In this document: piece after piece, positions 12,528 through 60,864 of the stretch
How positions within the stretch are numbered: the stretch's first letter is position 1
Layout: the number at the start of each line of letters is the position of its first letter
NCBI GenBank assembly: GCA_010356995.1
Contig: ML996691.1
Location: 906,211-970,210, forward strand
Source of the DNA: Trichodelitschia bisporula
Lineage: Eukaryota > Ascomycota > Dothideomycetes > Phaeotrichales > Phaeotrichaceae
DNA length: 64,000 bases
Direction of reading: 5' to 3'
Notes under the pieces: model-generated
The model's database searches: none
What the model saw: the letters and a program-made list of their open reading frames with translations, nothing else
Told to the model about the DNA's origin: nothing
Position numbers and translations under genes: made by a program

Positions 12528-14632
12528 TCACACAATAGCCGCCACCAGAGTCATCATGGTGAAGTAACTACAGCGTTTTATCAGCATCATCGTCATCCTG
12601 CAGATCCCCCGACGGGGGAACCTCTCCACGTACCTAGCAGCACAAAACGCCCACTCAGCAACAGGCATCATCTCTCCAAACCCCGCCCCCGACACCGCCG
12701 CCATGCCCGCCGCCTGCAGGGCAAGTAGCACAAGCAGCCGCGCCGCGAACCCCGGGATCGCAGTGAAAGCCAGCGGTGGCAGGAGCACGAGCAGCGGGAG
12801 CACAACGCCGAGGCTGGGCCGCATGCCGAGCGGCAAGTCGGCGAACCCATCGGGCGCCGGCCGCCTCCTCTGACGCTCCCGCTTCGGCTCGTGTTTCAGG
12901 CCCTCATGCTTCGGGCCCTCGTTCTCGCCCCGCTCGTGCTCCCTGCCTTTTCCGTCAGATCCTACAGGCGCGGACTCACGGCGTCGGCGCAGCGGCGCTG
13001 CCTCGGGCGCCAGGCACATGAGGTCGCGGTCGTGAGATAGGAAGTGCGTTTCCATTTTCTCGATTGGCGCGTGGGTGCGCATCCACGCGCGGTAGGCGGC
13101 GACGTGCGCGGCCGGCGCGGGCTCGAAGTTCTTGCCCGCGGACGAGTAGGCCTCGAGGGCCTGGTCTCGAGTGTGCGTTAGCGAGGCTTCCATCAAAAGA
13201 TGAACGGAAAGGCATGAAGCTCACTGTACTGCGCCAGCTTGACAAAAACACGCCCAAGCACATTCGTCCGCTGGAAATGCAAACTCCCACCCAACCGCGC
13301 CTCCGCCCGCCGACTCGCCGGCTGCAACACCCGCCCCTCAGTCGCCGGCGTCATTTGCGCAATCCCCTCATCCAACCCCCGCAGCTCCTCCTCCAACTCA
13401 CTAATCTCATCTTGCAAATGCAGCAAGATGCGATGATTCAGCGCCTCAAACCTGCGGTACACAGGCCGCGGCGCCGCCTCCCCGTCCCCGTCCGCACCCG
13501 TCAACATTGCAGCCACGAGTTCGTACCCTGTCAGCGTACGCTTGCGCGGATCGACGCCCAGCCCGAGTCCGAGACCTAGGTGCGGCGGCGCGGGGGCGTG
13601 TAGCAGGCCCTGGGGCGGAGGGGGCATGCCCAGCGCGCTGGGGTGCGGCGGGCCTGGGTACGGCGGGTACAGCGCGGGGTGGGCATGCGGCGGGTGTGGG
13701 GCGGGTGGTGGTGGGAAGGGGTACGCGGTGTCGAAGAGGGGGAGGGGGGGTGCAGGGGATGGCGCATAGGCGGCGGTTATGGGTGGCCGGTAGTGTCGTG
13801 TGGGCTGCGGGCTATGTACGACGACCGGAGGCTGGGTGTGTCGTCGTAGGTCTTGCTCTTGCTCGGCCATACGGCGGGCGATGGGGTCGGTATCGGGGAG
13901 AGTGCGGACGGTGCGTGGGGAGGGGACGAGAGGCGGGGAGGGCGGGTGGAGGTGGGGGTGGGGGTGATGGTGGTGGGAAGAGGAGGAGGCGGCTTCGGAG
14001 GACTCGTCATCATCATCCTCCTCCTCCTCCTCCTCCTCCTCCTCGTCATCTTCATCGTGGGAGTCGGAGTTGAGACTTCGGGAGGAGGCGGAGGAGGAGG
14101 AGTAGTTGGACGAGGAGTCGTCGACGGGGTCGAGGGGTTTGACGTCCAGCCCCGCGGAGGGCGAGCTGCTGCTTACGGAGATGCCGCTGTCTGAGTTGAT
14201 GAAGCCGTGGCTTTCTCGTCGGGGTTGTTGACGGCGGCCGCGGGGGAAGGCGTTGGGGAAGGGTGGAGGTTGGTCGCTGGGGAGTGGACCGTCTGGGATG
14301 TTGTGGTTGTGGGAGAGGCCGTTGGGAAGGCTGTGGGACTGACCATTTGGGAAGCCATTCGGTGGTCCGTGGTACAGTCCGTTTGGTAGTCCATTTGGCA
14401 ATCCGTTTGGCAATCCATTGGGGAGTCCATTGGGCAGTCCGCGGGATAGTCCATTCGGCAGTCCGTTGGGCAACCCATTTGGCAGTCCGTTGGAGTGGCC
14501 TGAGTGTCCGCTGGAGAAGGCTGGGAGTCCGTTGGTCAGGCCATCCGAGCGGTCCATGTGTGCTGGCGATGCCGACGGCGATGGGCGGTGAGGCTCCATG
14601 GCCGGGTGGTTCGTCGACTCTCCGGAATCCAT
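12528..14632 (-). CDS. DUF6594-type membrane protein with N-terminal NGLP repeats
   Basis: Three exons (14632-13225, 13165-12634, 12567-12528) give 659 residues. The N-terminal half is disordered: an NGLP repeat (residues 48-107), a long Glu/Asp run, a His-rich patch and Pro-rich segments. The conserved part begins near GYELVAAML and continues with YRRFEALNHRILLHLQDEISELEEEL, then LAQYNQALEAYSS. After a charged linker come hydrophobic segments (LGVVLPLLVLLPPLAF, LLVLLALQAAGMAAV) and a last one completed by splicing (FCAASYFTMMTLVAAIV). The order of an RFE.LNHR.LL.LQDEI block, a helix pair and C-terminal membrane helices is that of fungal DUF6594 proteins, whose function is unknown to me. The last intron (12568-12633, 66 bases) is free of in-frame stops. 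GTACGT...CTGTAG and the better C-terminal helix support its removal. Confidence 0.82.
14312..14491 (-). repeat. NGLP tetrapeptide repeat in DUF6594 gene
   Basis: About 14 imperfect 12-base units encode NGLP and variants (SRGLP, YHGPP, NGFP). The DNA units differ at several sites, so the array is not a fresh expansion. Confidence 0.85.
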
Positions 14633-30802: not shown

Positions 30803-31489
30803 TATGACAGCGAAGTCAGGGCGTGGTATCCGGTAGGCATTTATGTCCGCGATCTCGATAACGACGTTAGATGGTGGTGAGGCTCTCAGCACATCCTCCG
30901 TCACCGGACCCGGCCACCGCCAGCTCGGCTTGGATCGGAAGCTTGGCTCGGAGGGCGCTGCGGCGGTGATTGGGCAGAGATTGGCGGCTCGGGAGAACCT
31001 GTACTTAGGGGACGGGAGTGGGCGAGCGACACCACGGCTGTGGGGCTTTGTTCCCCTAAAAGCATATCTACGCGCAACGAGCGGCGAGATGAATTTGGGC
31101 ATGAGAAGGTTTACGTAAAGCGGTCAGCGGGATTGGGGAGTTATGGAGTACAAATAGAGGAGGGGAGGGGGATGAGCAGTGCATTCCACGCTTTCTTTGA
31201 CTTACGAAGTTGGATCAGACGGACGGAAGCAGTAGAACTAGACGTTGTATGCACATTATCTTTCTTCACCGCATCGGGCTACTACACGTGTGTCTTCTCT
31301 AAGTCTGAGTTGCTACCTCTCCTCCTTGTTACCACTGTCGTCGGCCAATTTCGCCTCGAACTCCCGACTCCGACTCCAACTTGGACGGCAACGTCCCCTC
31401 TCGACATTACTCGATCATCGCAGCGACCCTCCTACCACAGCATCTTCCATCCCTCCAGCAATAACACTCACACTCTCCCAACCGCAACC
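30803..31489. promoter_or_regulatory. Divergent promoter region of DUF167 gene and arginase
   Basis: 687 bases between the two start codons. A pyrimidine-rich leader (about 31310-31480) precedes the arginase start. If the DUF167 gene starts at 31102 instead, the shared region shrinks to 388 bases. Confidence 0.5.
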
Positions 31490-32558
31490 ATGACCTCCGC
31501 CCCAACCCTCCAACCCCGCTTCCTCCCCTCCCGAACCGAACTCGGCCTCGTCGCCGTCGGCTTCTCCGGCGGGCAGGTACATTCCCCCCCCTCCTTCCCC
31601 ACCAACCAACCCCTAACACCCCGCAGTGCAAAGACGGCGTCGACGCCGCCCCCATGGCCCTCATCGAAGCCGGCCTCATCACGCAACTAACCTCCGAACT
31701 CGACTTCAACGTGCACTACGACGGACAAGTACACTCGTACGCCGACCTACGCCCTGAACACGACCCCCCGCACCGCGGGATGAAGAACCCGCGCGCTGTG
31801 TCCGCGGCCACGCAGGCGCTGAGCGCGCAGGTGTACGCCCATGCGAAGGAAGGACGGTTTGTGCTCACGCTGGGCGGGGATCATAGTATCGCCATTGGCA
31901 GCGTGAGTGGTGTGCAGAAGGCGGTTAGGGAGCGGTGCGGACGGGATGTGGCGCTGGTGTGGGTGGATGCGCATGCGGATATCAACACGCCTGAGAGTTC
32001 CGGGAGTGGAAATATACATGGCATGCCAGTGGCGTTTTTGACGGGATTGGCGAGGGAGGAGGATAAGAGTATGTTTGGGTGGTTGGAGGAGGAGGGGAAG
32101 GTGAATTTGAGGAAGATTGTGTATATTGGACTCAGGGATGTGGATCGCGGGGAGAAGAAGATTTTGAGGGAACATGGGATAAGGGCGTTTTCGATGCATG
32201 ACATTGATCGGTATGTTTTATGTTTCTTTTGAAGGCAATGGCTGACGGTGATAGTCATGGCATCGGCAAGGTCATGGATATGGCTCTCGGCTGGATCGGC
32301 AGCGACACACCCATCCACCTCTCCTTCGACGTCGATGCCCTCGACCCCATGTGGGCACCGAGCACAGGTACACCCGTACGAGGCGGGTTGACGTTGCGCG
32401 AGGGAGATTTCATCGCCGAGTGTGTGCACGAGACTGGGAATCTGGTGGCCCTGGACCTCGTCGAGGTGAACCCCAGCCTCGAGATCACGGGCGCGCAGGA
32501 GACGGTACGGGCAGGGAACTCAATTATTCGGTGTGCTCTGGGTGACACCTTGCTCTGA
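31490..32558 (+). CDS. car1: Arginase
   Basis: Three exons (31490-31576, 31627-32210, 32255-32558) give 324 residues, the usual arginase length. The enzyme hydrolyses L-arginine to ornithine and urea and opens arginine catabolism. The manganese-binding motifs are all present: LTLGGDHSIAIGS, VDAHADINTPESSGSGN (DAHAD in place of the more common DAHTD) and LSFDVDALDP. APSTGTPVRGGLTLREG and LVEVNP complete the signature. Intron 1 (GTACAT...CCGCAG) and intron 2 (GTATGT...GATAG) are canonical and join GGQ-CKDGV and DIDR-HGIG as in homologues. Confidence 0.96.
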
Positions 32559-47553: not shown

Positions 47554-48166
47554 TTTACGGGGAGAGGTCCGGAGACCGGGGAACGGAGACCGGAGGGCTG
47601 GATTAAACGAGACTAACAAGTTACACGACAGTAAAGGCGACACAACATCACGGAACCACGCAGGAACAGCGAGGCTATATATTCAACGGGCGCAGATCGC
47701 ATCAACGGGCAGATGACCGTTCCTACGCCCTCCACGCGGCGCAGAAAACAGGGTCTCGAAGGGGTTTACAATCACTGCAGATGTGTGGTGCAACGTTGAC
47801 TGTGCCTGCATGGTATTTTTACCTGTCTATCCCCTCCCCAATTCAGGTCTTCCAGCCGCTGATGTAGGCCAAGCCTGACCCCTGTCCATCCGACCGGTAC
47901 CCTGGTAAGGCGCAAGGCTGAAGTCTCAACACAGCATTTGTGTACGAGCCATGCGTCCGGGAGCCCCGGTGGCGGAGTTGGCTTTTATCTGCATCACACG
48001 GTCGCTTTGATAATCTCCCACCCAGTCATCAGTCTGTTTAGATGGACTCCAGCAGCGGGGAGGCAGCACGGCGGTCAGATTCGTCGGCGTGGTCTCGGGC
48101 TCGATGTTCATGATGAGAAACCGGGTGACCTTGGAACAGCGGATGCGGGTGCAATACGTTGCTGAA

Positions 48167-48640
48167 CTAGGTGGCAGCTGGGGAACTCCAGTTGTCGGCG
48201 CCAATCCTGAGTATATACCAGTACGTCATGCCTTGATCGGTACAGCAGGTATATATGCCTCTCCTTCCTCTTATACTCGCATCCGACCGGTCACTCCTTA
48301 TCACGATCCCGTTCCGAAAGTTGAACACAGAGGGTGGAGTGATTTCCAAGGCAAAGGCATCGGGCAGGCCTGCAGCCCGAACGGCCGCGAGGACGTCGGT
48401 AGGGTGAGGTTGACTCGGGCTCTTCGTCCTCATCGCTGTACTTCTCCATGGCGCTGGGTGTGGCAGTGGATCAAAGTCCCTGAAGTCCCCCTCCCTGCGG
48501 TAGTAGAAGTACCGCTGGTACTCGGCTTCGTCCAAGCGGTCTTAGAATGTGGACGGTTGGTCAAAGATCAAGTCGCTGGGCCGAACGTCCTCCGGAGTGC
48601 CGGGTATGGCGCCGCTATACTCGAAGTCCGCCCGGTATAT
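48167..48640 (-). pseudogene. Unidentified gene relic
   Basis: The minus strand reads protein-like sequence (GTPEDVRPSDLIFDQPSTF, a stop, then DRLDEAEYQRYFYYRREGDF and PTDVLAAVRAAGLPDAFALEI). The frame is interrupted once and has no start or family signature I know. Confidence 0.35.
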
Positions 48641-49160
48641 ATCCCCTCCACCTCCGTCCTACGACGCGTCTCTCTTATACCCGTGGTGAGCTTTCCGCCG
48701 CTTTGAAAGTGCGAAAAGCTTCGTGAATGCCCGTCTCTCGCGCAGGATTTATATAGCGCCTCCTCCAGGACCGGCGAAATGGTCAACTTCAATGGGATCT
48801 GGAAGTAGTGGTGTTGGAGGTCGCATAAGGTTATACATAGTGGAGGAATTTCTCCGGCAGATTATCAAGAGATCGTTGAAGTTATAGCGTATCCTCAACC
48901 TTGCGGCGGGGTTTCGGCAACAATACTGAATGACTAGCCTTGTCGAGCTGAGAAGTCCTCGCAAGGCTGACCGAGAGTTGAGGATTCGCTGACGAAGAGG
49001 GCCGCCTTGATGCAGAACGAAGCACCAAAGGGCTACTTCCATCATCCTAGCACACGCACATGGCCTCGGATTGAAACCAATCAAACTCGCTGGGAGCTTG
49101 ATGTCGTGAGATGCCGGTATACATATACGCCCGCGCATGCGCTATACTTGTACGGCGGCT

Positions 49161-49550
49161 TCATGCCAACCGGCCGGTCGAGACAGCCGGTATATATGAA
49201 TCCTGCGTGGTGTCGGCACCGGGGCGGGATGGGGCGCGGGGCTTGCTCTTCACGATGCTGGCGGACTGCGCACGGGGTTGTGGATCCCCGGCGGATGAAG
49301 CTTCAGTCGTTTTTGCCTCGTCCTCGCCAGCGGGCTCTTCCGGCGCCGCAACTTGGAACTTCTTCGGAAGACCTGGCAGCAACGCCTTGAGCTGTGCCGC
49401 CATAGCGGCGTCCACCTTTTGGAATGGCTTCTTCTTATATAGCGCCTTGAAGCTTAGAAGCGTTGTCGCGGGAAGAAGTGTCGGGTCGAACAGCAATGAT
49501 TCGTCCACGTCGATGGACTTGTTGCGCTGGTGCGCACGAGTGCTGGCCAT
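49161..49550 (-). pseudogene. Unidentified open frame, possible relic (129 codons)
   Basis: Starts MASTRAHQRNKSIDVDESLL and contains helix-forming and charged sequence (KKKPFQKVDAAMAAQLKALL) before a low-complexity end. It might be a small gene or an exon of a lost one. It sits among TATA-rich strings and relics, which favours the latter. Confidence 0.3.
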
Positions 49551-49879
49551 CTTATATACTGTGCGAGGATTCCACGCGGTCTTGCGATTGCTGGTGCGTT
49601 AAAGAAGAAGGATTTGGAGATATAAGTGGTGAAGGATATATACGACGTGACGCCGGGCGCGAGATTATACTTCGCTGGGCCAAGACCGGCTGGTCCGCTG
49701 GGAGGGTGCCGCATGATGATTGTAATGTCCGCATTGCCGGTGATGCTCCGCTGGACTGTGCAGTTCATGGTGGATGTTGTTGATTTGGCATGTGATGTTG
49801 GTTTTGTTGGATAGGTGCGCCGCTTCAGAACGCGGGGAGATAGGCGTTGGAAGGGGATTGGCAAGAGGCCATCTTCGAT

Positions 49880-50115
49880 CCCTTATACTTAGTAACCGCC
49901 TCGTCCTTGAGTGCATCGACATCCGGGTCACCGAGTCTCGGCTTCCCAGCTCCGCAAGCTCTTGGTCTGAGGGACGCGACACAGTTCTTTAAGCTTTGAA
50001 TGAGTGGACTTTTCAACCTTCTGAAGCTCTGAAAGCCGATATGTAATAATGGCTTTGAGGTCGTGGCCATGGCATGCCGCAGCGAAGGTCTGAAGATTGG
50101 CCTCGGAAGCCTCAA
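49880..50115 (-). repeat. DNMT5 fragment 1 (source 53672-53909)
   Basis: Encodes EASEANLQTFAAACHGHDLKAIITYRL, matching the intact EASEANLQTVAAACHGHDLKAIIAYRL. Over the 93 bases from 50021 I count 8 differences. Confidence 0.9.
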
Positions 50116-50249
50116 AAATATATAGGAAGAGGACTTCAGATGACTTCAGATGATGCTGAGTATATGGGGCTTTGAATATAAGACGCTTTCTTCGATGAAG
50201 GTGATGTCGAGGCATGCATTGGTGGGTGGTCAGAAACTTTTTGAGGTAC

Positions 50250-50412
50250 TGTGGAATCGAGAAGCTAGGCATCTTTTCGTTTCAGAACCAAAGGCTCAAC
50301 GAATCAATACCGAAACCACAGCTAACTCGAGTAGAAGTAGTAGGAGTGCGACAAGAAGTGGGAGAGTAGTTTCGAAGAGTTAAAGCTTAGGCTCGAAACA
50401 TCGAAATCGGGA
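50250..50412 (-). repeat. DNMT5 upstream-flank fragment 2 (source 59511-59672)
   Basis: Aligns to non-coding DNA before the DNMT5 start; both have the AGGAGTGCGA...GAAGTGGG string and a following TCGAA...GTTAAA segment. A short TTCGATGAAGGTGATGTC at 50193 matches 59704 but lies on the other side, out of order. Confidence 0.8.
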
Positions 50413-50566
50413 TTCAAGGCCGAGAAGTCGATATAGGACAAGCCAGCAATAAGAGCGCCGATATTGCCTGGAACTTTGATGAAGGACCTATACGCGGTAG
50501 TGCCCTTGGGTTTTAAGTCGTCTTTGCCTTTGACAAACTCGGTGATATCACAGAACAACAGGAGGC
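50413..50566 (-). repeat. DNMT5 fragment 3, catalytic-domain piece (source 58133-58288)
   Basis: Encodes FCDITEFVKGKDDLKPKGTT and then LIAGLSYIDFSALN. The intact gene has FRDITEFVKGEEDEKPKGTT and LIAGSSCVDFSKLN; the catalytic Cys is Tyr here. Confidence 0.9.
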
Positions 50567-50701
50567 CTATGGGATTAGCGAGATACACTACCCGCGGTAG
50601 AAATGACAGCGGCACATACCAAATTTATAGTCCTCTAGGCCTATATGAAGGACCTGCCCGTGCAGTATGTCTGCTTCCAGGCCGGAGAAGTCGGCTGCGA
50701 C

Positions 50702-50844
50702 GCCTGCAGGCCGAGATGATGCGTATCTCGGAAGACGCAGAAACCGCGGCACAGCCCTTGACCTGGCACTTAACATCGTCCGGTTTAGTGGCCTCACGCT
50801 CGGCGCACTTTAGGCGGCCCATGGCTTTATAGAACCGCAGGATG
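50702..50844 (-). repeat. DNMT5 fragment 4, RING-proximal piece (source 53442-53584)
   Basis: 143 bases align without gaps; I count 18 differences, of which 13 are transitions. Encodes EREATKPDDVKCQVKGCAAV (intact: DREATKPDDVKCQFKGCAAV). Confidence 0.92.
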
Positions 50845-50928
50845 TTTGCCGCCCACACCTGGGCAGTTTTCAATGGTGTGCCTCTGTAACTGAAGCGGAA
50901 TGAGAAAGGGAGCTTTTTGGTCCTCGAT

Positions 50929-50979
50929 GCCGCGATATAGTGCTTAGGGTTGCTCGCACATCCGGAACAGGCGTTGTGA
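50929..50979 (-). repeat. DNMT5 fragment 5, zinc-finger piece (source 56951-57001)
   Basis: Encodes HNACSGCASNPKHY, matching HNVCSGCVSYPKHH of the intact protein. Confidence 0.75.
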
Positions 50980-51000
50980 TGCCCTATAATTTGTATATTC

Positions 51001-51149
51001 GTCCACATCGATGGTGTGAAGTGTAACCTAAGACCGGTTAGGGGAAAAACTTGCGGTGCGGGGGGACTTACGAAGCACCAGACGTTGACCTCTTTCTGCT
51101 GGCCAAATATATGGCAGCTGCAAACAGCTTGAAGCATGGTATCTTCGTA
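51001..51149 (-). repeat. DNMT5 fragment 6, 3'-end piece with intron (source 52814-52963)
   Basis: Spans the last intron of DNMT5 and encodes TMLQAVCSCHIFGQQKEVNVW (intact TMLQAVRRCHRFGQQKEVNVW). The intron GTAAGT site is retained, showing a DNA-level copy. Confidence 0.9.
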
Positions 51150-51165
51150 TACGCGCTTGGAGCCG

Positions 51166-51259
51166 ATGCCTTCCTCTGCTCCGAAACGCTGACGCACGCG
51201 GCGAGTGATTTGAGGAGTCGAATGCCGAAATTGGATGGGGCATCTCAGAACAACTCATG
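51166..51259 (-). repeat. DNMT5 fragment 7, central piece (source 55946-56040)
   Basis: Shares CTTC...GCTCCGAAA..., the GCGNGTGAT...GAGGAGTC string and a closing ACTCATGA/ACCCATGA. It separates fragments 6 and 8, which are neighbours in the intact gene. Confidence 0.75.
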
Positions 51260-51332
51260 AACCCAAAAACAACCTGAACCATATAATCTTCTCGCGCTTA
51301 CGCTTGCGAGCGTCGCCGCTTATATTCCGAGT

Positions 51333-51450
51333 CTTCATGCTGGTCCTTAGCGATATAGGGCGCTAAGAACACGACATGATTCGCATTCTGAAGGTTTCTG
51401 CTAAGGTTAGCTATGGTTCGCTCGAAGGCCTATTGAACTTACAGTCCAGA
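51333..51450 (-). repeat. DNMT5 fragment 8 (source 52963-53082)
   Basis: Shares TGCTGGTCC(C/T)TAGCGA, TAGGG(T/C)GCTAAGAA and ACGACATG(G/A)TTCGC with the intact gene and covers the penultimate intron. Just left of it, 51291-51312 resembles the first exon of DNMT5 (59270-59291). Confidence 0.85.
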
Positions 51451-51501
51451 TTATACCGGTTTGAAAGTATAGAAGAAGGAGACCGTGTGGCAACCAACTT
51501 C

Positions 51502-51720
51502 TCATGAGTGAGGCGGCGGAAGGTGACAATAACAGCATGTTGCTCGGAGCTTCCAGAGGATGTTATTGAAAGTTGAAAAATGTGACAGTGAGCATCGGAG
51601 GTGGTCCCGAAGGATTTGACTCTCTGTTGAAAGATCGATATCGTTTGAAATCGAGTCGTCAGTGTCTTCGAAACTAGGAACTTTCTTCGATGAAGATGGT
51701 GTCAAAGTAAGTGAAAGGGA
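51502..51720 (-). repeat. Diverged copy of DNMT5 upstream sequence
   Basis: Shares a GATCGATAT...TTTGAAAT segment and CTTCGAAAC...CTTCGATGAA...GTGTC with 59680-59726. A minus-strand frame here reads SSKKVPSFEDTDDSISNDIDL, comparable to SSKRVFRFEDIDLLISNLS upstream of DNMT5, so a small decayed coding sequence may be part of the repeated unit. Confidence 0.5.
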
Positions 51721-51820
51721 TGAGGTGTAGGCAAAGGTTTACAGTTCTCACTGGGTGAATGTTGTAGGAAGAAAGCAGAGTGCGAGTGGAAGTGAGGACT
51801 TTGTTCACCTCGAGGGAAGG

Positions 51821-52154
51821 CGGGCACTCGCTTGGCCGCAGAGGCCGGAGATTCTTCCCCCGAGCTATCGAGCGGGCTTGTGCTTCAATTTAGCAAGTCC
51901 GGGGCTTTATTTACCTGAGCGGTGAGTTGGGGCACTGGCTCGAAGATTCAAGCCATCAAACAGTGGGCAGTTGAGGACACCATCAGGAGGCGGTGATGAC
52001 TTGGCAAGGCTGGCGGGAGATCATTCTGCATGGGCCATCGAGCGGGCTATAACTTAATTCAACGGATCTGGAGTAACGTTTACCCAGGCGGTGAAGTAGA
52101 TTCACTGGCACGACTGGTTCGGAGATTCTAGTAATCGGACAATGGGCAGTTGAT
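51821..52154. repeat. Degenerate direct repeat, two copies
   Basis: Copy A (51821-51975) and copy B (51990-52154) share, in order, CTTGGC, a GGAGAT.ATTCT segment, CATCGAGCGGGCT or TATCGAGCGGGCT, CC.GGCGGTGA or CTGAGCGGTGA, CACTGGC and GGGCAGTTGA. Many substitutions separate the copies, so the duplication is old. Confidence 0.75.
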
Positions 52155-52426: not shown

Positions 52427-55400
52427 CTACAACTCGTCTCCCGATTCCTCCTCTGACTCGTCCTCCGATTCGTCCTCCGATTCGTCCATCGACTCGTCCT
52501 CCAGCTCCTCCGGCTCCTCCATGTCCTCGTTCGAGTCGTCGTCCGAGTCCGCCTTCTCTTCCACGTCCACCGAAACAGCAAAAGAGTAGGGCAGAAGCGA
52601 CCCAGAGGTAAATCCCTTCTTTACCTCTGAACCAAGTTTACGAACCACACTCTTCGGAACTAGAGCGTAGAGCCCGGTCGTCTCAAGCTCAATGAGCTCT
52701 GCGTCCTCGTTGCCTTCCACGTGCGTACCGAGCGAGAGCGTCTGTGGATGGGACCTCATGGAGCCGCGGTCAACCAGCGCGCGCTTAAGGCGGCGCTCGC
52801 TACGCTCAAGAATGTCCACGTCGATCGTGTGAAGGGCAACCTAGACCTGTCAATGGAGAAACTTGCGGTGCGGGGGGGAACTTACGAAGCGCCAGACGTT
52901 GACTTCTTTCTGCTGGCCAAACCTATGGCAGCGGCGAACCGCTTGAAGCATGGTAGCTTCGTACTCCTGCTGGTCCCTAGCGAGGTAGGGTGCTAAGAAT
53001 ACGACATGGTTCGCTTTCTGGAGGTTCCTGTTGAGGGTTAGTGATGGGATTGGATAGAGGATTATGAAACTCACAGGCCAGACTGCTGCCTACTGTCGAA
53101 ATCAAGGATGAGCGCCCGGAGACTCTTTTCCGTCTTGAAAGACTTTATCGCTTTCTCGGTGGAGCCGATGACACAGGCGATATTATGAGTCTCCAAAGTG
53201 CGCTCCACGATTTTGCCGAGCTCTCCCGTCTGGACAAAGATGACAACTTTATCGTCATGCGGTAGCTCACGAAGAAGAGAGGCGATTTCGTCGATCTTCG
53301 AGCCTTCGGTCTTGTCACCATTGTCGTCCCCAAAAGCTGTGACGGGAAGGGCGTGGGTGGGAAGGAAACCAGCGTCGCAGCCGTCAACGCCACAGACAAT
53401 GGGCAAGACTTCGTTGCCCAGACACTTCGTGCAGACACAATGCCCGCAGGCCGGAATGATATGCATCTCGGAAGACGCAGGAACCGCGGCACAGCCCTTG
53501 AACTGGCACTTAACATCGTCTGGTTTAGTGGCCTCACGATCGGCGCGCTTCAATCGGTCAATGGCTTCATAGAAGCGCAGGATGCGGTGCTGCAGAACAA
53601 GCTGCAGCTCCACACGCCGAATCTCCTCCAAGAACTTGCGAGGATCCACCACTGTTCCGGTCTTCTTCTGGGCTTTGTACTGGGCAAGAGCCTTTTCCTT
53701 GAATGCATCCGCATCCGGGTCGCCGAGGTCTTGGGCTTCCCAGTTCCGCAAACTCTTGGTCTCACGGACGCGAGGCAATTCTTTAAACTTTGAATTAGCG
53801 GATTTTTTGATCTTCTGAAGCTCTAAAAGCCGATAGGCAATGATAGCTTTGAGGTCGTGGCCATGGCATGCCGCAGCGACAGTCTGTAGATTGGCCTCGG
53901 AAGCCTCGGAGAAATCGGGTTCCGGCCCCACGCCAGGATAACGACGAGGCGCGCGAGGGTCCACCTTCTCCGCCGGTGTTCCCAGAAACTGCTCCTTTTC
54001 CATGGCATACCGAGCATCCTCATAGAACGCTCGATGAACGCAACTCAGATTGACTGGCTTAAGGAACTCATGGCAAACAATACCGTGCAGCGGCGCTTCG
54101 TTTTTGCGAGCGAAGGTCCTCAAGAACTTTGCTGCCATGTCGTGGCGCGCCTTATGCCAACGATGTGACTTCTGCTCCTGTAACGACCGAAACGATTCAC
54201 CAACCGTCAATTCCGCGCGGAATTCTTTCAGCTTCTTCTGATTCAGGACGTCTTTTGACAGAACCTCTGGTCCCAGATCAATTCCAATCAAGCTCGCCAT
54301 GAGCTTGATATCCGAGAAGTCCGCCACTGGGGGTGTGCCCGAAAGCACCCACTTCTTCGACGCGCAAATGCTCGCTGCCGAGTCGAAGACAGGCGTGTAT
54401 TTCTGATATGCGCCCTTTCCCGGACCCAGCTCCATCAAGTCGGCGTACTCGTCGATGATGACGCGGTTCCACTTGAACAGCTGCAAGACTGGCTGCAAAA
54501 GGTGATTCCAGGCATCACTGGCATCGGTGCTCTGCACTCCACCCTGTACCTTGCGACGAGTCTGAGGCTTGCTGACCTTAAGCTTAGCCTTTAGTTGAGC
54601 AGCGTTTTGAGCCCCCTTCATGCGCTTTGTCGGAGCAGTGGCGATAAGCTTCTCGTCGGACAAGAACTCGCCAATACGGTTGTCGAGGTATGTCGAAAGC
54701 TCGGAGACCGTATGGCCTTTCATAAATTCGACGTTTTGACGAAGGCGACCATCTGCCACCTTGTACCACTGTTGGAATTTACGACCGGACAAGTTCGGAG
54801 GTGGCATCCCGGCGAGCTGCGCCAGGTGAGACACATACGTATCGTAAGTCAACAAGCTGAAGGCGATAATGACGATCTTGGCGCGCTGAACTTGGGCCAC
54901 TGTCAACTTCCTCCAGTCATTGATCGTGCGGATGACGATGACCATCTCTTCGCCGAACTCGGAACTATCGAAGAACTTCTTGTGTTCATTAGCCCACTGG
55001 TCTCGCAGCAGATCCGGAGCGATGATCAGCGTCGCGGCCGTCGGAATGAAGCCGGAATCGGATTTGAGCGGCTCCTCAATCTCATCGCGCTTCAAACGCA
55101 TGAACTCTTCGTGGATCAATGCCAGAGACGTCAGAGTCTTCCCGAATGAAGGTGCATCTGCTAGGATCCCGCCCTTGACATTAACAATGGTTGAGGCACG
55201 GATCGCAGCGCGCAGTTGAATGCGATCAATCATCGCCTCTTCGATCGCCTCAAGCTTGAAGGGGCGTCCCTTCTCCTGAGAAATCATCCAGCCCAGCGAG
55301 CGAAGCTGCTCATCTCGAAGCTCGACCTTCATGGCTTCAGGCTGGTTACACATCGCATCATCGGCGTTGTTCAGAAGATTTTTCTCCAGGGAGGGAAATG

Positions 55401-58400
55401 CAACGACTGGCGGCACGAAATAGTCCGTCTCAATGACCCAGTGAAGGGCAATGACGTCGGCCTGGCCTTCTGTCAAGTTTGCCATCCGAGCAAGCTCCAT
55501 GATTGCCCGATGCGACAATGACACCACGTTCAAGCCGATCTTGAGCGAGGCGCTGAGCCCAGCCACCTCTGTATCAACCACAAAAGGCTTAGGGCGCGAC
55601 TTGATGGCATTTTCGAAGTCGGCTGCTTCAATGTGGTCTTCAACAGGGTCCGTCTGGTTAAGCCAGCGAAGGTGGGGTGGCATAGGGCTGCAACGGCACC
55701 GGAAGGCGGAGACGATAATATCCTCACGCATCTTGTGCCAGCGATTCGCAGTCCCGCGAGCCTTGAACGCATCTGGCCCCAGGTTTCGAGTGGTCCACGC
55801 CAAAGCATCCCAGAAGCGGGAATCGTTCGGGTCGTGCTGGGCCTTGGTAGGGGGGAATTTCTCCTGAAGGTGTGACGGTATTTCAGAGAATGGGAATGCA
55901 GCCTCGAAGAAATAACCGGCCGTGAGACAGATATTCTCGTCGTCGTTACCTTCTGATGCTCCGAAATGATGACGTAGGCCGCGGGTGATCAGAGGAGTCC
56001 CATCTTGAAATTGTATAGAGTTTCCTAGACTAACCCATGAGCCGGGAAGCAAAGCGTCGACGCGCCAAGGTCCATGTTGCTCCCGCAATTCCGAACGCCA
56101 CGGATTGAACACCGGGACGTCAGGCTTGTTCCAAGGACGCCAGGAGGGCACAGACGCGATGATGTCCCGCTTTTCACCACGGCCAAGGCGCTCGTGAGAT
56201 TTGGCGAACACGAAAGGATCTTGATCCGCCTCTCCCATAGGATCGGGATCCAGAAACAGATTGACCTCGGTGTTGCCCTCCTTCTGGTACAGCGTGGAAC
56301 AGGCTGTGCCACAATTGGCTAAAAGGAGATATTTGCCTTGAAGTTTTTCAGCCGTCGTACCCAGCCCTTGTCCGGCCACAGATATCTCCAGGCGCTCGGG
56401 GACTGTCTCATCGAGATAACCCGGGATGTTCAGCTTCGCCCGGAAGGAAGGTAGCTTCTTTCCCTTCCCCCTGAGAAGAAGATTACAATGCTTGTCTTCT
56501 GGCAAGAAAACGACCCACTGCTCGGCGCTCAATTCAGAACCCGAAAGCCCAGAGCAATCGGCTTTGATGATGGGAGTCGCTAGCACCTTACGCAGCCAGG
56601 AATTGGCGGGCAAGTTATCCACCGGTTTGGCATAGACCTCCCAGTACATCATGCGGTCGGTGGGAATCTTCAGCTCCGCCCAGGCGTTGGGAGCGTCATA
56701 GATGACTGACCATTCGCGGCCGCGGTGGTAATTTTTCCAGACGAAGTCGGAGTTCAATGCGACCGTGAGAGCCTGGCCGTACATCACGACATTGTTCGAC
56801 AGCCCGGTGCTCTGGAAAACCGCATTCAGCCTCTTCTCACACGAGTCCATGGAAGTCTCCGCAACGATCCTGAAAATACGCGGAAAGTGCTGGCCGGACT
56901 CCTTCCAGAAGGACTCCGGAGGCGCTCTATCTGCGCGAAGAACCTTCTTCGCCGTGAGATGATGCTTCGGATAGCTCACGCATCCCGAACAGACGTTGTG
57001 TCCACAACTATCGCAGACCAGGATGTCGAACTTGGAGAGACCCTTCTGACCTTCGCAAGTGCAACGACGAAGTGTCTTCTCCGCACAGCTACGGATGGTT
57101 TGAGTGACTGCTTCGGTGTTCTGGCTGGTCACGTTGATCAGGTCGGGTTCAAGAGCGTTCTTGCCCCAGGTGGACAGCTTCTTGACTTCAGTCCCTGGCG
57201 CGCGAGCTGGCTCGATCGACTTCGTATCGAGTTTCCCGTGGGCGACGATGAGCGCGGAAAGAATTGCCGAGCCGACAACAGTCGTGCTCATGGCGTTACC
57301 GGCAAGATCCTTCAGCTGGCTGTCCGTCTCCGAGGTAAAGGTCACCTCATCAATGGGAATGCCTTGCAGGCTCAGCGTCTCCTGCCCAGTGAGGAGACCA
57401 ATGCGATCAGTCAAGAAGCACATGCCTCGAGGCGTCAAGCATCCAGTGAGTCCCAACTGGGCGCGGTCGACGCGGTCGACGTTCTGGCTGATGTCGATGA
57501 TGCGGGTCTTGTACGTGAAGTCAATGCCGTTGCGAGCATGCTTCCGGAACAAGATGTCGATCAGATCTGAATCACGCATTGGACGGTTCTTGAGCCAGGC
57601 CTTGTGCGCATGCTCGGGCATCTGCTGCAAGAATGGAGGTCCAGAATCGATGTTGAGGTCTTCGCGCGCGTTGGCATGGCGGTTGCGACAGGCTTCCCAC
57701 GATAACTTCTTTGGCGCTGTGAACTGTTGAGCGTCCTTGATGTCAATTGCGCGAGGATCGTCATCCTGAAGAAGGAAGTCCGAGACAGGAGCACTAGCCC
57801 GACGCTTGAACCCGTCCATGACGCTTTCCCACTTGCGGCTGTATTCGGTGGCTTCTTCGAGGGTGAAGTGGTCCCGGATGTCCAGGCAGATCATGTATCT
57901 ACGCTCACGCGTGTGCGGAATGTAGTACTCCTTGGTATCCGTCTTGACATCTTTGGCTACGTATCCCACGGACCAGAAATAGTCACGAAAGCTCTTCCAA
58001 GTCTCCGCTTTGGCCACTACATTTTCCAGAATAACGATGGCTGGGCGCGTGCGCTTGGAATACTCCAGGATGGCCATGAACGTATTCGTAGACTCGCCAT
58101 TGCGCTCCCTCGGCATTGTGATCATGTTGGTGTTCAACTTCGAGAAGTCGACACACGATGAGCCGGCAATGAGGACGTCGATGTCGCCAGGAACTTCGAG
58201 GAAGGACCCATACGCGGTGGTGCCCTTAGGCTTTTCATCCTCCTCGCCTTTGACAAACTCCGTGATATCCCGGAACAGCAGCGGAGGCTTGAAGTTGCGC
58301 TGAATGTACGCCTGCTTGAATGCGTCGATCTCCGCGCTGAAGACGTGCTCGACCTTGAAGGGTTCCTTCTCCTTTTTCTCCAGAGCTAATTGAAAATCAG

Positions 58401-59295
58401 CATATAAGTCAAAATTAAACCGCACATTGTAACTTACACTTCTGGACCAGAGTGAGAGCAAGCAATGGGCTCTCAGTCCCACTGCACATGGTGGCGACCC
58501 GAAGAGGCCTGCCATTGAGGTGCCTCAGAACATCTTTGAATCCAAGATCAATCGCCTTATCGGTGAGCGCATCAAATATCTCATTGATGTCCGAGATTGG
58601 CGGGAGCTCCATATCCAGCCCCTTGACGCGACGGCGCGGAGTCTTGCGAGTGCGGCCAGCGGCGACGTCCGATTCTTCCTCAGAATCTTCCGAACCAGGC
58701 TCTTCCTCAGCCTCTTCAGTCTCAGACGGAACTTCCTTATCATAATCCTCGACAGTACCCGAAAGACCAGGCGGCCCATCGTCGACGTCCATCTGGTTGG
58801 CGTCATCTTCGGCGTCGGTGGCTTGAGCCTCGTCCCGACGAGCCTCCAGAACTGGAAAAGCTGTATAAGGCTCATAAGCATCTTCACCATGCTTGGAACG
58901 ATTGATGGACATACGCCCAACCGACGTAGTAAGCTCGTCGTCGTTGTTGCGCGCGAGAGCTGTCTGATGTTAGCAAGGCTGAAATTCTTGGGCACGTGAC
59001 CGACTGAGAACCGAGATGGGACCAGCAACAGTCGGACAAAAACACCGCACAGAACATCGTGCAGCGAGAAACTTTGCGACAAGAAACCAACTGCTGGATA
59101 CATGCTGGACGGGGTGCACCCCCCGCCCGAATGGAAGGGGGCAAGATCGAGTGGGATGTGGGCAGAATGCTGCGACTTACAGCGAGTGGGAGTCCGCGGC
59201 GGCTGCGCGGAGCGAGCACGCTTCTGGTCGCCTTCTGGGCTTACAGACGATTTGTCCGCTGTAAGCTTCGCCTCACGCTTACGCTTCGACTCCAT
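52427..59295 (-). CDS. DNMT5: DNA methyltransferase DNMT5 (cytosine-5 MTase + RING + SNF2 ATPase)
   Basis: Five exons (59295-59181, 58959-58438, 58385-53075, 53027-52886, 52840-52427) join in phase to 2167 residues. DNMT5 enzymes are ATP-dependent maintenance CpG methyltransferases of fungi. MTase motif I is LRVATMCSGTESPLL (near 195), completed by the family-typical catalytic loop AGSSCVDFSKLN (Cys about 290). Motif VI is ILENV (about 333). Then come RRYMICLDI, and the C-terminal motifs GLLTGQETLSLQGIP and QLKDLAGNAMSTT. A Cys/His cluster follows (CTCEGQKG...CDSCGHNVCSGC). The SNF2 ATPase has GGILADAPSFGKT (Walker A, about 1290), RVIIDEYADL (motif II, DEYA, about 1525) and KWVLSGTPP. A RING-like finger (CGHCVCTKC, about 1860) is inserted before the helicase C lobe, which ends with CHRFGQQKEVNVWRF. 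The last 45 residues are almost all Asp/Glu/Ser. No chromodomain is visible in the N-terminal 190 residues. The start at 59295 (MESKRKREAKL) is preferred to 59343. Confidence 0.93.
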
Positions 59296-59472
59296 GATCG
59301 TGATGTTGCAACTTAATGTGTGGACTGAGACCGGAGTTAGCAATGATCGGAGACACTTTTCTACTTAAGGAGCCTAATGCTGTTTGCTTCTTTCCGTTGA
59401 TACCAACAGCTTTAACCCATTGAGCAAGAGGTAAAACAAACCATTGATGTATCGAACCCCAAATGGGGAAAC

Positions 59473-59775
59473 TTACCTTGTGGATGTTCCGTAAGGAACC
59501 GAGAGATTAACGTGGAATGGAGAAGGTAGGCTTATTTTCGTCTTAGAACCGAAGGTTCGACCAATCAATGCCAAAACCACAGCTAGCTCGAGCAGAAGAA
59601 TTAGGAGTGCGATAGGAAGTGGGGGGTAGTTCGAGAAGTTAAAACTTAAGGTCGAAAGATTTGAAATTAAGAGATCGATATCTTCGAAACGGAAAACTCT
59701 CTTCGATGAACGCGATGTCGAAGTAATCGTCGAAGTAAGCGTTGAAGCCCGAGGTCTAGGGGTTTTTTCATTCAC
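59473..59775 (-). pseudogene. Short open frame in the repeated DNMT5 upstream flank
   Basis: 100 codons with RFEDIDLLISNLS and a hydrophobic stretch PPLPIALLILLLELAVVLALIG. Similar strings occur in the copies at 50.3 and 51.6 kb. I cannot tell whether this is a small membrane protein or a relic of a repeat-borne gene. Confidence 0.3.
59511..59726. repeat. Upstream DNMT5 sequence that recurs in the patchwork
   Basis: This non-coding stretch is the intact counterpart of 50250-50412, of the short match at 50193 and, more loosely, of 51502-51720. Confidence 0.75.
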
Positions 59776-60160: not shown

Positions 60161-60772
60161 CTCAGCATCGAACGCAGTCTTTGAATGATACCGTATTCCC
60201 AATCCGTAGCCAACATTCCGCATCGTATTCCGCTTGTCCTGCCCGAAATGCAAACGAAGAATCAAGTCCGCACATCTCCAACCGTTTCAAAAGCCCACTG
60301 CCAGCACCAATCCACCATATCTCTCGTATTGCGCTTGAATTGCACCAGTTCAGTCCGCGGTAGTCGCCGAGAGGAACCCCTAACCCACGCCCCGGGACGA
60401 TCCGGTAAGCGAACCCTAGCCGAGCCCAAGGCAAGCGGCTCACGCCCCACTCCGCGCGGCGAGAAGATACGGAGAATATTTGACGGAAGCACGCATCGCA
60501 TCGGTGCATTGAAGGCATTGGATACGGGCACTGCGTTCGACGGCATGGAGTAAGAGCGGTGATGATGCGCTATCTGGCGGCAGGAGTTACTGTAGGATGA
60601 AGAAACGCTGAAGACGGAAGATTGCAGTTTCGTACGCCCGAGACGCCAGGACATTACATGAGAGACAAAGTTCAACGACCAATATGTTATCAAACCGGCC
60701 GGGCATTACGCATTGGGCAAAAGGCTGCTCCACGTCGTCTGGAACGGCAAAAAGAAATATCAACTGGATATT
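60161..60772. other. Spacer left of tRNA-Gly
   Basis: No supported gene; overlapping frames of 118-143 codons on both strands lack motifs. Confidence 0.45.
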
Positions 60773-60864
60773 GCGTCGGCCGGGAATCGAACCCGGGGCC
60801 CGTCGAATCGTCCCCGAATGACTTCGGATGGCAACGACGGATTTTACCACTAAACCACCAACGC
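60773..60864 (-). tRNA. tRNA-Gly (GCC) with 22-base intron
   Basis: The minus strand folds as a tRNA. Acceptor GCGTTGG pairs with CCGACGC with one G-T pair. The D arm is GTTTAGTGGTAAAAT. The anticodon stem CGTCG/CGACG encloses TTGCCA-T with anticodon GCC. The T arm is CCGGG-TTCGATT-CCCGG. The 22 bases after TTGCCA are an intron at the standard position. Confidence 0.93.

Follow-up and report, generated by a model that had tools for sequence, protein, structure and literature searches.

Patch repair in plants is a filler-DNA process comparable to the insertion of copied sequence at breaks, and RIP-mutated gene duplicates occur in filamentous ascomycetes. More generally, gene-fragment capture is already known from Helitrons and from break repair. 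In yeast, copied genomic fragments inserted at breaks are documented; the inserted DNA often originates from fragile regions and several fragments can be joined, and where rad27 and RPA-related mutants insert two pieces of the same locus, an inverted arrangement is the usual one and a direct arrangement very rare (PMC11724301). Maize Helitrons capture several gene fragments in sequential steps (PMC3288121), a filler-DNA model has been discussed for a fungal Helitron (PMC4289320), and Pack-MULE and Pack-TYPE transposons carry host gene fragments (PMC8903248).

The locus considered here lies in a stretch of 64,000 nucleotides from the ascomycete Trichodelitschia bisporula (the window), which corresponds to C5:906211-970210 in a 25.65-Mb assembly of 30 contigs and in which FRQ, HET and TRP-like genes are present, as befits a filamentous ascomycete. 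The intact gene next to the pieces is DNMT5: the predicted protein combines the Pfam DNA_methylase and SNF2 domains by which membership of DNMT5 is recognised. Its best solved relative is 7r76 (1e-190), whose PDB title reads 'DNA repair protein Rad8' and which is the Cryptococcus DNMT5.

A gene-fragment mosaic beside DNMT5

When 48.6-52.4 kb of the window was compared by BLASTN with 52.4-62 kb, nine counted pieces spanning 49.87-51.74 kb matched DNMT5 or its upstream flank with E-values from 2e-47 to 4e-4 (Table 1), far above four control comparisons with the reversed gene region and three other stretches of the window, which returned 0, 2, 2 and 5 hits with a best E of 0.35. A first-pass annotation of this DNA had reported pieces of the neighbouring gene in rearranged order, in the orientation of the gene and with introns included, and it is borne out in each of these respects: all nine matches are on the plus strand, like the gene region, their order is shuffled relative to DNMT5, and intron-like sequence, with splice motifs read by eye, is present in the pieces at 51001 and 51331. 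Its argument that neither simple tandem decay nor inversion fits also stands, the order being shuffled while the orientation is constant. The further step from introns to a DNA template is less strict, since unspliced RNA carries introns too. One match of 49061-49199 to 54268-54406 (62%, E 1.5e-4) was left out of the count, together with three chance-level hits (E 0.63 to 4.2, one on the minus strand). The pieces 51001..51159 and 51331..51452 are contiguous in the gene, the copy of 52814-53084 being interrupted at ~52963 by an insert whose match can be extended, at 59%, from 51156-51438 to 55936-56226.

The 1.57 kb described at first is the right-hand part of a mosaic of ~48.2-51.5 kb, in which TATA runs reach 7-11 per kb versus 0-3 per kb in neighbouring 1-kb bins, and for which DNMT5 is the main local donor. 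Besides, window 46.0-49.9 kb (3.9 kb) has at least eight matches at seven other loci, self excluded. Two of these eight, both to C10 and with their spacing kept, fall outside the TATA-rich part, on its left side (47.0-47.5 kb), and may belong to a gene family.

Three other observations were made in the window. An imperfect local duplication (51791-51974 and 51962-52153, 63% over 196 bp) lies between the tract and the 3' end of DNMT5; a tRNA, possibly intron-containing, is called by ARAGORN just upstream of the gene (60772-60864, minus, anticodon unreadable: gcca); and 13451-14001 shows a weak inverted similarity to 31428-31975 (56% over 571 bp).

Table 1. Features of the mosaic and of its local donor in window coordinates, with the places of a recurrent intron-like sequence (last row)
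Feature	Position	Strand	Source, match or basis
TATA-rich gene-fragment mosaic tract	~48200..51500	minus (clear-call donor fragments)	TATA runs and codon orientation
Fragment at left edge of TATA-rich part	47973..48108	minus	matches C9:487772-487907, 92%
Fragment	48349..48644	minus	matches C4:282015-282310 (75%), also C1:1355767-1356024 (70%)
Fragment	49352..49436	not called	matches C5:377803-377887, 80%
Fragment	49449..49621	minus	matches C5:625933-626102, 86%
Fragment	49692..49782	not called	matches C8:313483-313573, 77%
DNMT5 piece	49867..50121	minus	from 53659-53915, 81%
DNMT5 upstream-flank piece	50204..50407	minus	from 59463-59667, 75%
DNMT5 piece	50407..50568	minus	from 58127-58290, 77%
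DNMT5 piece	50698..50844	minus	from 53438-53584, 86%
DNMT5 piece	50929..50978	minus	from 56951-57000, 78%
DNMT5 piece with intron-like sequence	51001..51159	minus	from 52814-52973, 84%
Insert splitting the 52814-53084 copy	51160..51330	minus	51169-51263 matches 55949-56043, 72%
DNMT5 piece with intron-like sequence	51331..51452	minus	from 52961-53084, 76%
DNMT5 upstream-flank piece	51631..51741	minus	from 59648-59758, 67%
DNMT5 gene, intact	52430..59295	minus	ORFs and sequence; outer limits judged by eye
Long exon ORF of DNMT5	53071-58515	minus	
Places of GTAAGT...GCTAACAGCCGCTAG	L043, L072, L073, L062, L017:9181-9241, L018:3359-3427, L019:9660-9773, L020:199-255		

Tracts on other contigs and their sources

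Mosaics of gene fragments form a wider class spread over the genome and are not an accident of the DNMT5 locus. Whole-genome protein and DNA searches, followed by finer local comparison, located further DNMT5 pieces at C1:1219611-1221306 (seven), C6:935354-936178 (four) and C2:393882-393995 (one, on the opposite strand), and none in the two 60-kb C5 flanks; the count omits a weak similarity (62%, E 0.002) between C8 and the end of the DNMT5 gene that bears the acidic repeat. The event was not local to DNMT5, as had been supposed, with pieces of the gene in four tracts on four contigs and many other source loci represented. DNMT5 had also been singled out as a notable victim: it is indeed a donor, but not the sole one, and its prominence is biased, the tracts on C1, C6 and C2 having been found via DNMT5 and the class being established from these three and that of C5. 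As a whole, the initial interpretation is partly supported.

Self excluded, matches elsewhere in the genome number at least 19 for C2 388.5-394.0 kb (5.5 kb; merged to 14 separate tract fragments), at least 17 for C6 928.5-936.0 kb (7.5 kb) and at least 11, two of them overlapping, for C1 1216.5-1221.0 kb (4.5 kb). These counts, as well as that of the window, include DNMT5 and are lower bounds drawn from the best candidates scored. A 20-kb window control gave one spot, matched by four places, and missed its own place, being therefore less sensitive than the shorter tract queries. The FRQ protein, searched across the genome, matches itself alone, without a second place. In an all-against-all comparison of 264 kb, a tract is involved in 25 of the 29 pairs; once the DNMT5 pairs are removed, six pairs involve a tract (27 kb) and four do not (237 kb).

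The fragments measure ~40-300 bp and their present identity to the matching locus is 68-95%. Nine source loci were considered with wider flanks: four hold stop-free frames of at least 300 codons, four hold shorter frames, and one, on C16, is TATA-rich and therefore another tract. One donor is Ada3 and three other donor frames are without a Pfam family; intactness of the donor thus refers to DNMT5 and to four of the nine wider stretches. Some tract matches are other tracts or gene families and not single-copy donors. C3:1625949 and its relatives, pieces with an intron-like core that are repeated across several tracts, probably do not represent a single-copy donor either.

The donor regions C4:282k, C11:188k, C3:1813-1814k and DNMT5 are each shared by two or more tracts, which mostly hold different parts of them, and such recurrence seems to exceed random choice among thousands of genes. 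A tiling of DNMT5 by the pieces of different tracts was considered and rejected, the cross-tract overlap being close to random in a hand estimate. Separately, an intron-like short sequence (GTAAGT...GCTAACAGCCGCTAG; Table 1) was seen eight times or more, with several of its places inside mosaic tracts, and points along the tract in C2 and C6 (direction by eye); it may represent an introner-like element or else a gene family that is repeated.

Coding strand, nesting and TATA content of the tracts

Within a tract, nearly all donor fragments share their coding strand. When a clear call is taken to need a codon-score margin of at least 5, and each donor, DNMT5 among them, votes once in each tract, 23 of the 24 donor/tract cases agree: minus in 4/4 for C5, 6/6 for C1 and 7/7 for C6 932-937 kb, and plus in 6/7 for C2. 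Simple arithmetic gives a chance of ~8e-6 for such an agreement. On C6, a plus reading was obtained for two fragments at 929 kb (margins 11.7 and 5.3), which were set apart after the data had been seen, because an intact ORF lies between them and the rest; without this post-hoc split the agreement is 23/26, and the chance with both fragments included becomes ~9e-5. Strand was called by codon usage, which was correct for 51 of 53 slices of the training ORFs themselves and hence optimistically estimated. One 22-bp match and the C10 donor (47.0-47.5 kb), which also reads minus, were dropped from the votes. The counted DNMT5 pieces face a single direction within C5 (nine), C1 (seven) and C6 (four) and the other donors follow, which disfavours the random joining of broken fragments put forward at first. 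The C4:282k gene reads plus in C2 and minus in C5, following its tract each time.

The C2 exception (L072) is minus by codons while its intron-like part points plus, and the calls for L045/L060 and L049 are weak, the best frame having stops or a negative score. Under the margin of 5, two calls agree in C1, five agree and one (L073) disagrees in C6 932-937 kb, and in C2 the two calls on the intron-bearing piece that recurs agree, beside one tie and one disagreement (L073). The donor-less sequence carries a strong strand signal in C2 (plus in 29/37 windows), a moderate one in C6 (21/32) and no clear one in C1 (15 plus, 18 minus) or C5 (8 plus, 6 minus). Finally, the flanking long ORFs, read by eye, point along the tract on both sides of C1 and C2, on the right only in C5 and on the left only in C6.

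Fragments are also found inside one another. On C6, a DNMT5 copy of 56187-56368 (~79-83%) is interrupted at 56287/56285 by ~335 bp that comprise 169 bp matching C17 (91%) and 114 bp matching C3 (82%), and a C11 piece (79-81%) is split by 129 bp matching C3 (86%), with the 4-bp repeat GTGA seen by eye at the ends of this second insert. On C1, the gene stretch 57347-57516 (host pieces 72-85%) breaks off at 57401/57404, where two pieces are inserted, the first derived from 53512-53707 and the second from C3; one of the two is at 87% and the other at 71-73%. An insert more similar than its host, as expected if it were younger, is seen in the two C6 cases, with a mixed picture in C1; the reverse is seen in C2, where a C18 insert of 75-76% is flanked by C14 pieces of 80-81%, and in the window, where an insert of 72% is enclosed by pieces of 84% and 76%. 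Identity therefore does not order the insertions cleanly, and differing constraint on the source loci may blur this order. Homology ends abruptly in both tract and source (20 source loci, short stretches). Adjacent fragments frequently meet to within 0-3 bp, share up to 15 bp or stand 13-40 bp apart, divergence blurring the ends.

Compared with the sequence outside, TATA is 7.4x, TATATA 22x and TA 1.34x as frequent in the tracts, whose borders are sharp, and TA standing alone is slightly less frequent there than in the controls (26.4 vs 29.6 per kb). Relative to the sources, TATA was gained 28 times, kept twice and never lost (5188 aligned ungapped columns, 80.5% identity, 41 alignments with overlaps reduced to the best), whereas 1000 simulations with the observed substitution matrix yielded 7.5 +/- 2.8 gains and a maximum of 18. 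Other words also depart from simulation (CTTC 46 vs 24, ATAT 20 vs 8 expected), but with losses too. Alignments of at least 87% show one gain in 399 bp and older ones 5-7 per kb. The gains are without a flanking motif and spread evenly over the codon phases (11, 9, 10), and protein selection is not supported as their cause.

Several other origins of the TATA gain were considered, of which RIP and microsatellite slippage are rejected. As for RIP, C-to-T change is without CpA dominance (CpA 0.149, CpG 0.146, CpC 0.108, CpT 0.086). Microsatellite slippage is disfavoured by runs that nearly stop at three units, (TA)2, (TA)3 and (TA)4 reaching 5.1, 1.7 and 0.07 per kb in tracts and 1.07, 0.045 and 0.015 in the control, and by the fact that most gains are substitutions. 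A role as joining linker is weak: of 118 fragment ends, 25 have a TATA run no more than 10 bp away vs 16.5 in the null (P 0.02) and 42 no more than 20 bp away vs 29.5 (P 0.006), but mismatch clusters bias the points at which alignments end. UAUAUA is a polyadenylation efficiency element in yeast, with a maximum at three repeats (PMC8522215). A yeast-type element of this kind is not supported here, as 63 long ORFs outside tracts have 0.3-1.6 TATA per kb in the 300 bp past the stop and 3.0 at 300-400 bp, compared with ~9 per kb in tracts. The proximity of donors to TATA clusters gave P 0.066 for 13 donors on C1-C3, with the clusters taken among the matches listed and the donor C1:1355767, beside a cluster, left out.

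The tracts (27 kb) contain 16 instances of a three-TATA pattern that is absent from the 237 kb outside and has 271 instances genome-wide. Scaling from this rate suggests up to ~460 kb of tract DNA in the genome. This is an upper limit: simple repeats account for some of the matches, the tracts that set the rate were not randomly chosen, and the mirrored control pattern is even more frequent genome-wide (508). A blind test of C3:1802.7-1804.7 kb, chosen by TATA alone, detected two fragments in 2 kb with three matching places, a result that is supportive of the class but weak.

Origin of the tracts and comparison with known systems

Many sources, nesting, close abutment, a shared strand, frame-breaking decay and TATA gain are observed in the four tracts. 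The reading preferred here, in which our confidence is evenly balanced, is a serial copy-insertion of gene fragments of ~40-300 bp into the same intergenic stretches, in a single orientation and as one genome-wide class. Ectopic template sequence would be copied into breaks, by filler-DNA or template-switch repair, in transcribed intergenic DNA, and fragments would be inserted successively, sometimes inside earlier ones, from other loci of which several are clearly open genes. Repeated copying into breaks would fit because of the nesting, the intact donors, the wide identity range and the mixed sources. Nevertheless, break repair alone is insufficient for the orientation and an extra cause is needed; we infer that the single orientation could arise from an RNA template, or from the removal of antisense inserts by selection, because break repair predicts a random orientation, which is not seen.

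A more specific version is tentative and, in our view, rather doubtful: a directional transcription-linked process would copy host-gene pieces, via RNA or transcription-linked breaks and in sense only, into dedicated tracts, which a sequence-specific mutational or selective drive would then bring to (TA)2-3. If true, the tracts would be a new kind of gene-fragment archive, neither transposon nor ordinary pseudogene decay.

Among the rival explanations, the gene fragments could have been gathered stepwise, as in maize, by non-autonomous Helitrons that are now old and degenerate, or by a comparable transposon able to capture fragments, and both the filler-DNA model discussed for a fungal Helitron and tract sizes of ~3-10 kb would fit. 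This is nonetheless unlikely, since no common end or backbone was found among the four tracts (all-against-all, E 1e-4, at which ends of 20-30 bp could be missed), inter-tract matches besides DNMT5 consist of two of 41-42 bp (C2-C6, C6-C5), and the TATA gain is not accommodated by the model. Reverse transcription with template switching on unspliced transcripts, from which chimeric cDNAs would enter the tracts, accounts for one coding orientation per tract and allows introns. We consider it quite unlikely, as the interrupted DNMT5 piece on C6 resumes at the same place and the identity range is wide, both of which point to separate insertions, and as the upstream-flank DNMT5 pieces, which reach ~460 bp upstream of the ATG, require a long 5' UTR.

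A history in which DNMT5 was repeatedly duplicated on the spot and the copies then lost sequence through many nested deletions, which was among the initial suggestions, draws on the C5 pieces, which can be split by eye into ~4 descending runs when read along the coding strand, and on one duplicated neighbour pair of DNMT5 pieces in C1. It leaves the DNMT5 pieces of C1, C6 and C2 and the fragments from other loci unexplained and is improbable; largely refuted for the class, it could survive for part of the C5 order alone. More improbable still is that the tracts are functional chimeric genes with captured fragments as exons, the sense orientation then reflecting protein selection. Donor-frame stops (7 vs 20.9 +/- 4.4 simulated; 1299 codons, 30 fragments, all change put in the tract) and nonsynonymous codons (411 vs 516) are both below simulation, as such genes would predict; but change on a constrained donor branch also lowers these expectations, 43 of the 49 gaps in tract-versus-donor alignments shift the frame, and the TATA gains ignore codon phase. 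The frame-shifting gaps support tract decay without frame constraint. An assembly artefact, judged from the assembly, is hardly credible, as the pieces differ by 5-32% from the matching loci where chimeric reads would be near-identical, and as at least four contigs carry the same signature.

Should the orientation rule hold in more tracts, short-fragment insertion would be tied to transcription or RNA, a link that is rarely visible in natural genomes, and the specific TATA gain would constitute a quantitative signature not given by the mutation processes considered. For a fungal genome that is compact, the tracts would also be a source of pseudogene fragments and perhaps of new transcripts. 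Both the orientation rule and the TATA gain are testable from the sequence of sister species. Among the open-licence papers listed, neither one strand per tract together with a specific TATA gain nor fungal mosaics of this kind were recognised.

With regard to described systems, the tracts resemble RIP duplicates in being decayed duplicates in an ascomycete with C-to-T change raised at CpA, but CpA is not above CpG, single TA is not enriched and the order is shuffled. With regard to Pack-MULE and Pack-TYPE elements, which carry host gene fragments as well, a search for inverted repeats of at least 25 bp found none in 49.0-60.5 kb, the tract itself beginning further left. As in maize Helitrons (PMC3288121), fragments of many host genes appear to be collected stepwise, but among the four tracts no common ends or copies were seen, short ends being poorly detectable. 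The templated insertion or filler DNA of yeast and plants comes with short copies from distant loci, no loss of the donor and multi-fragment joins. The tracts likewise hold short copies from distant loci, with an intact donor and a host piece that resumes without loss; unlike templated insertions, they pile up their inserts, nest them, keep them mostly on one coding strand and gain TATA.
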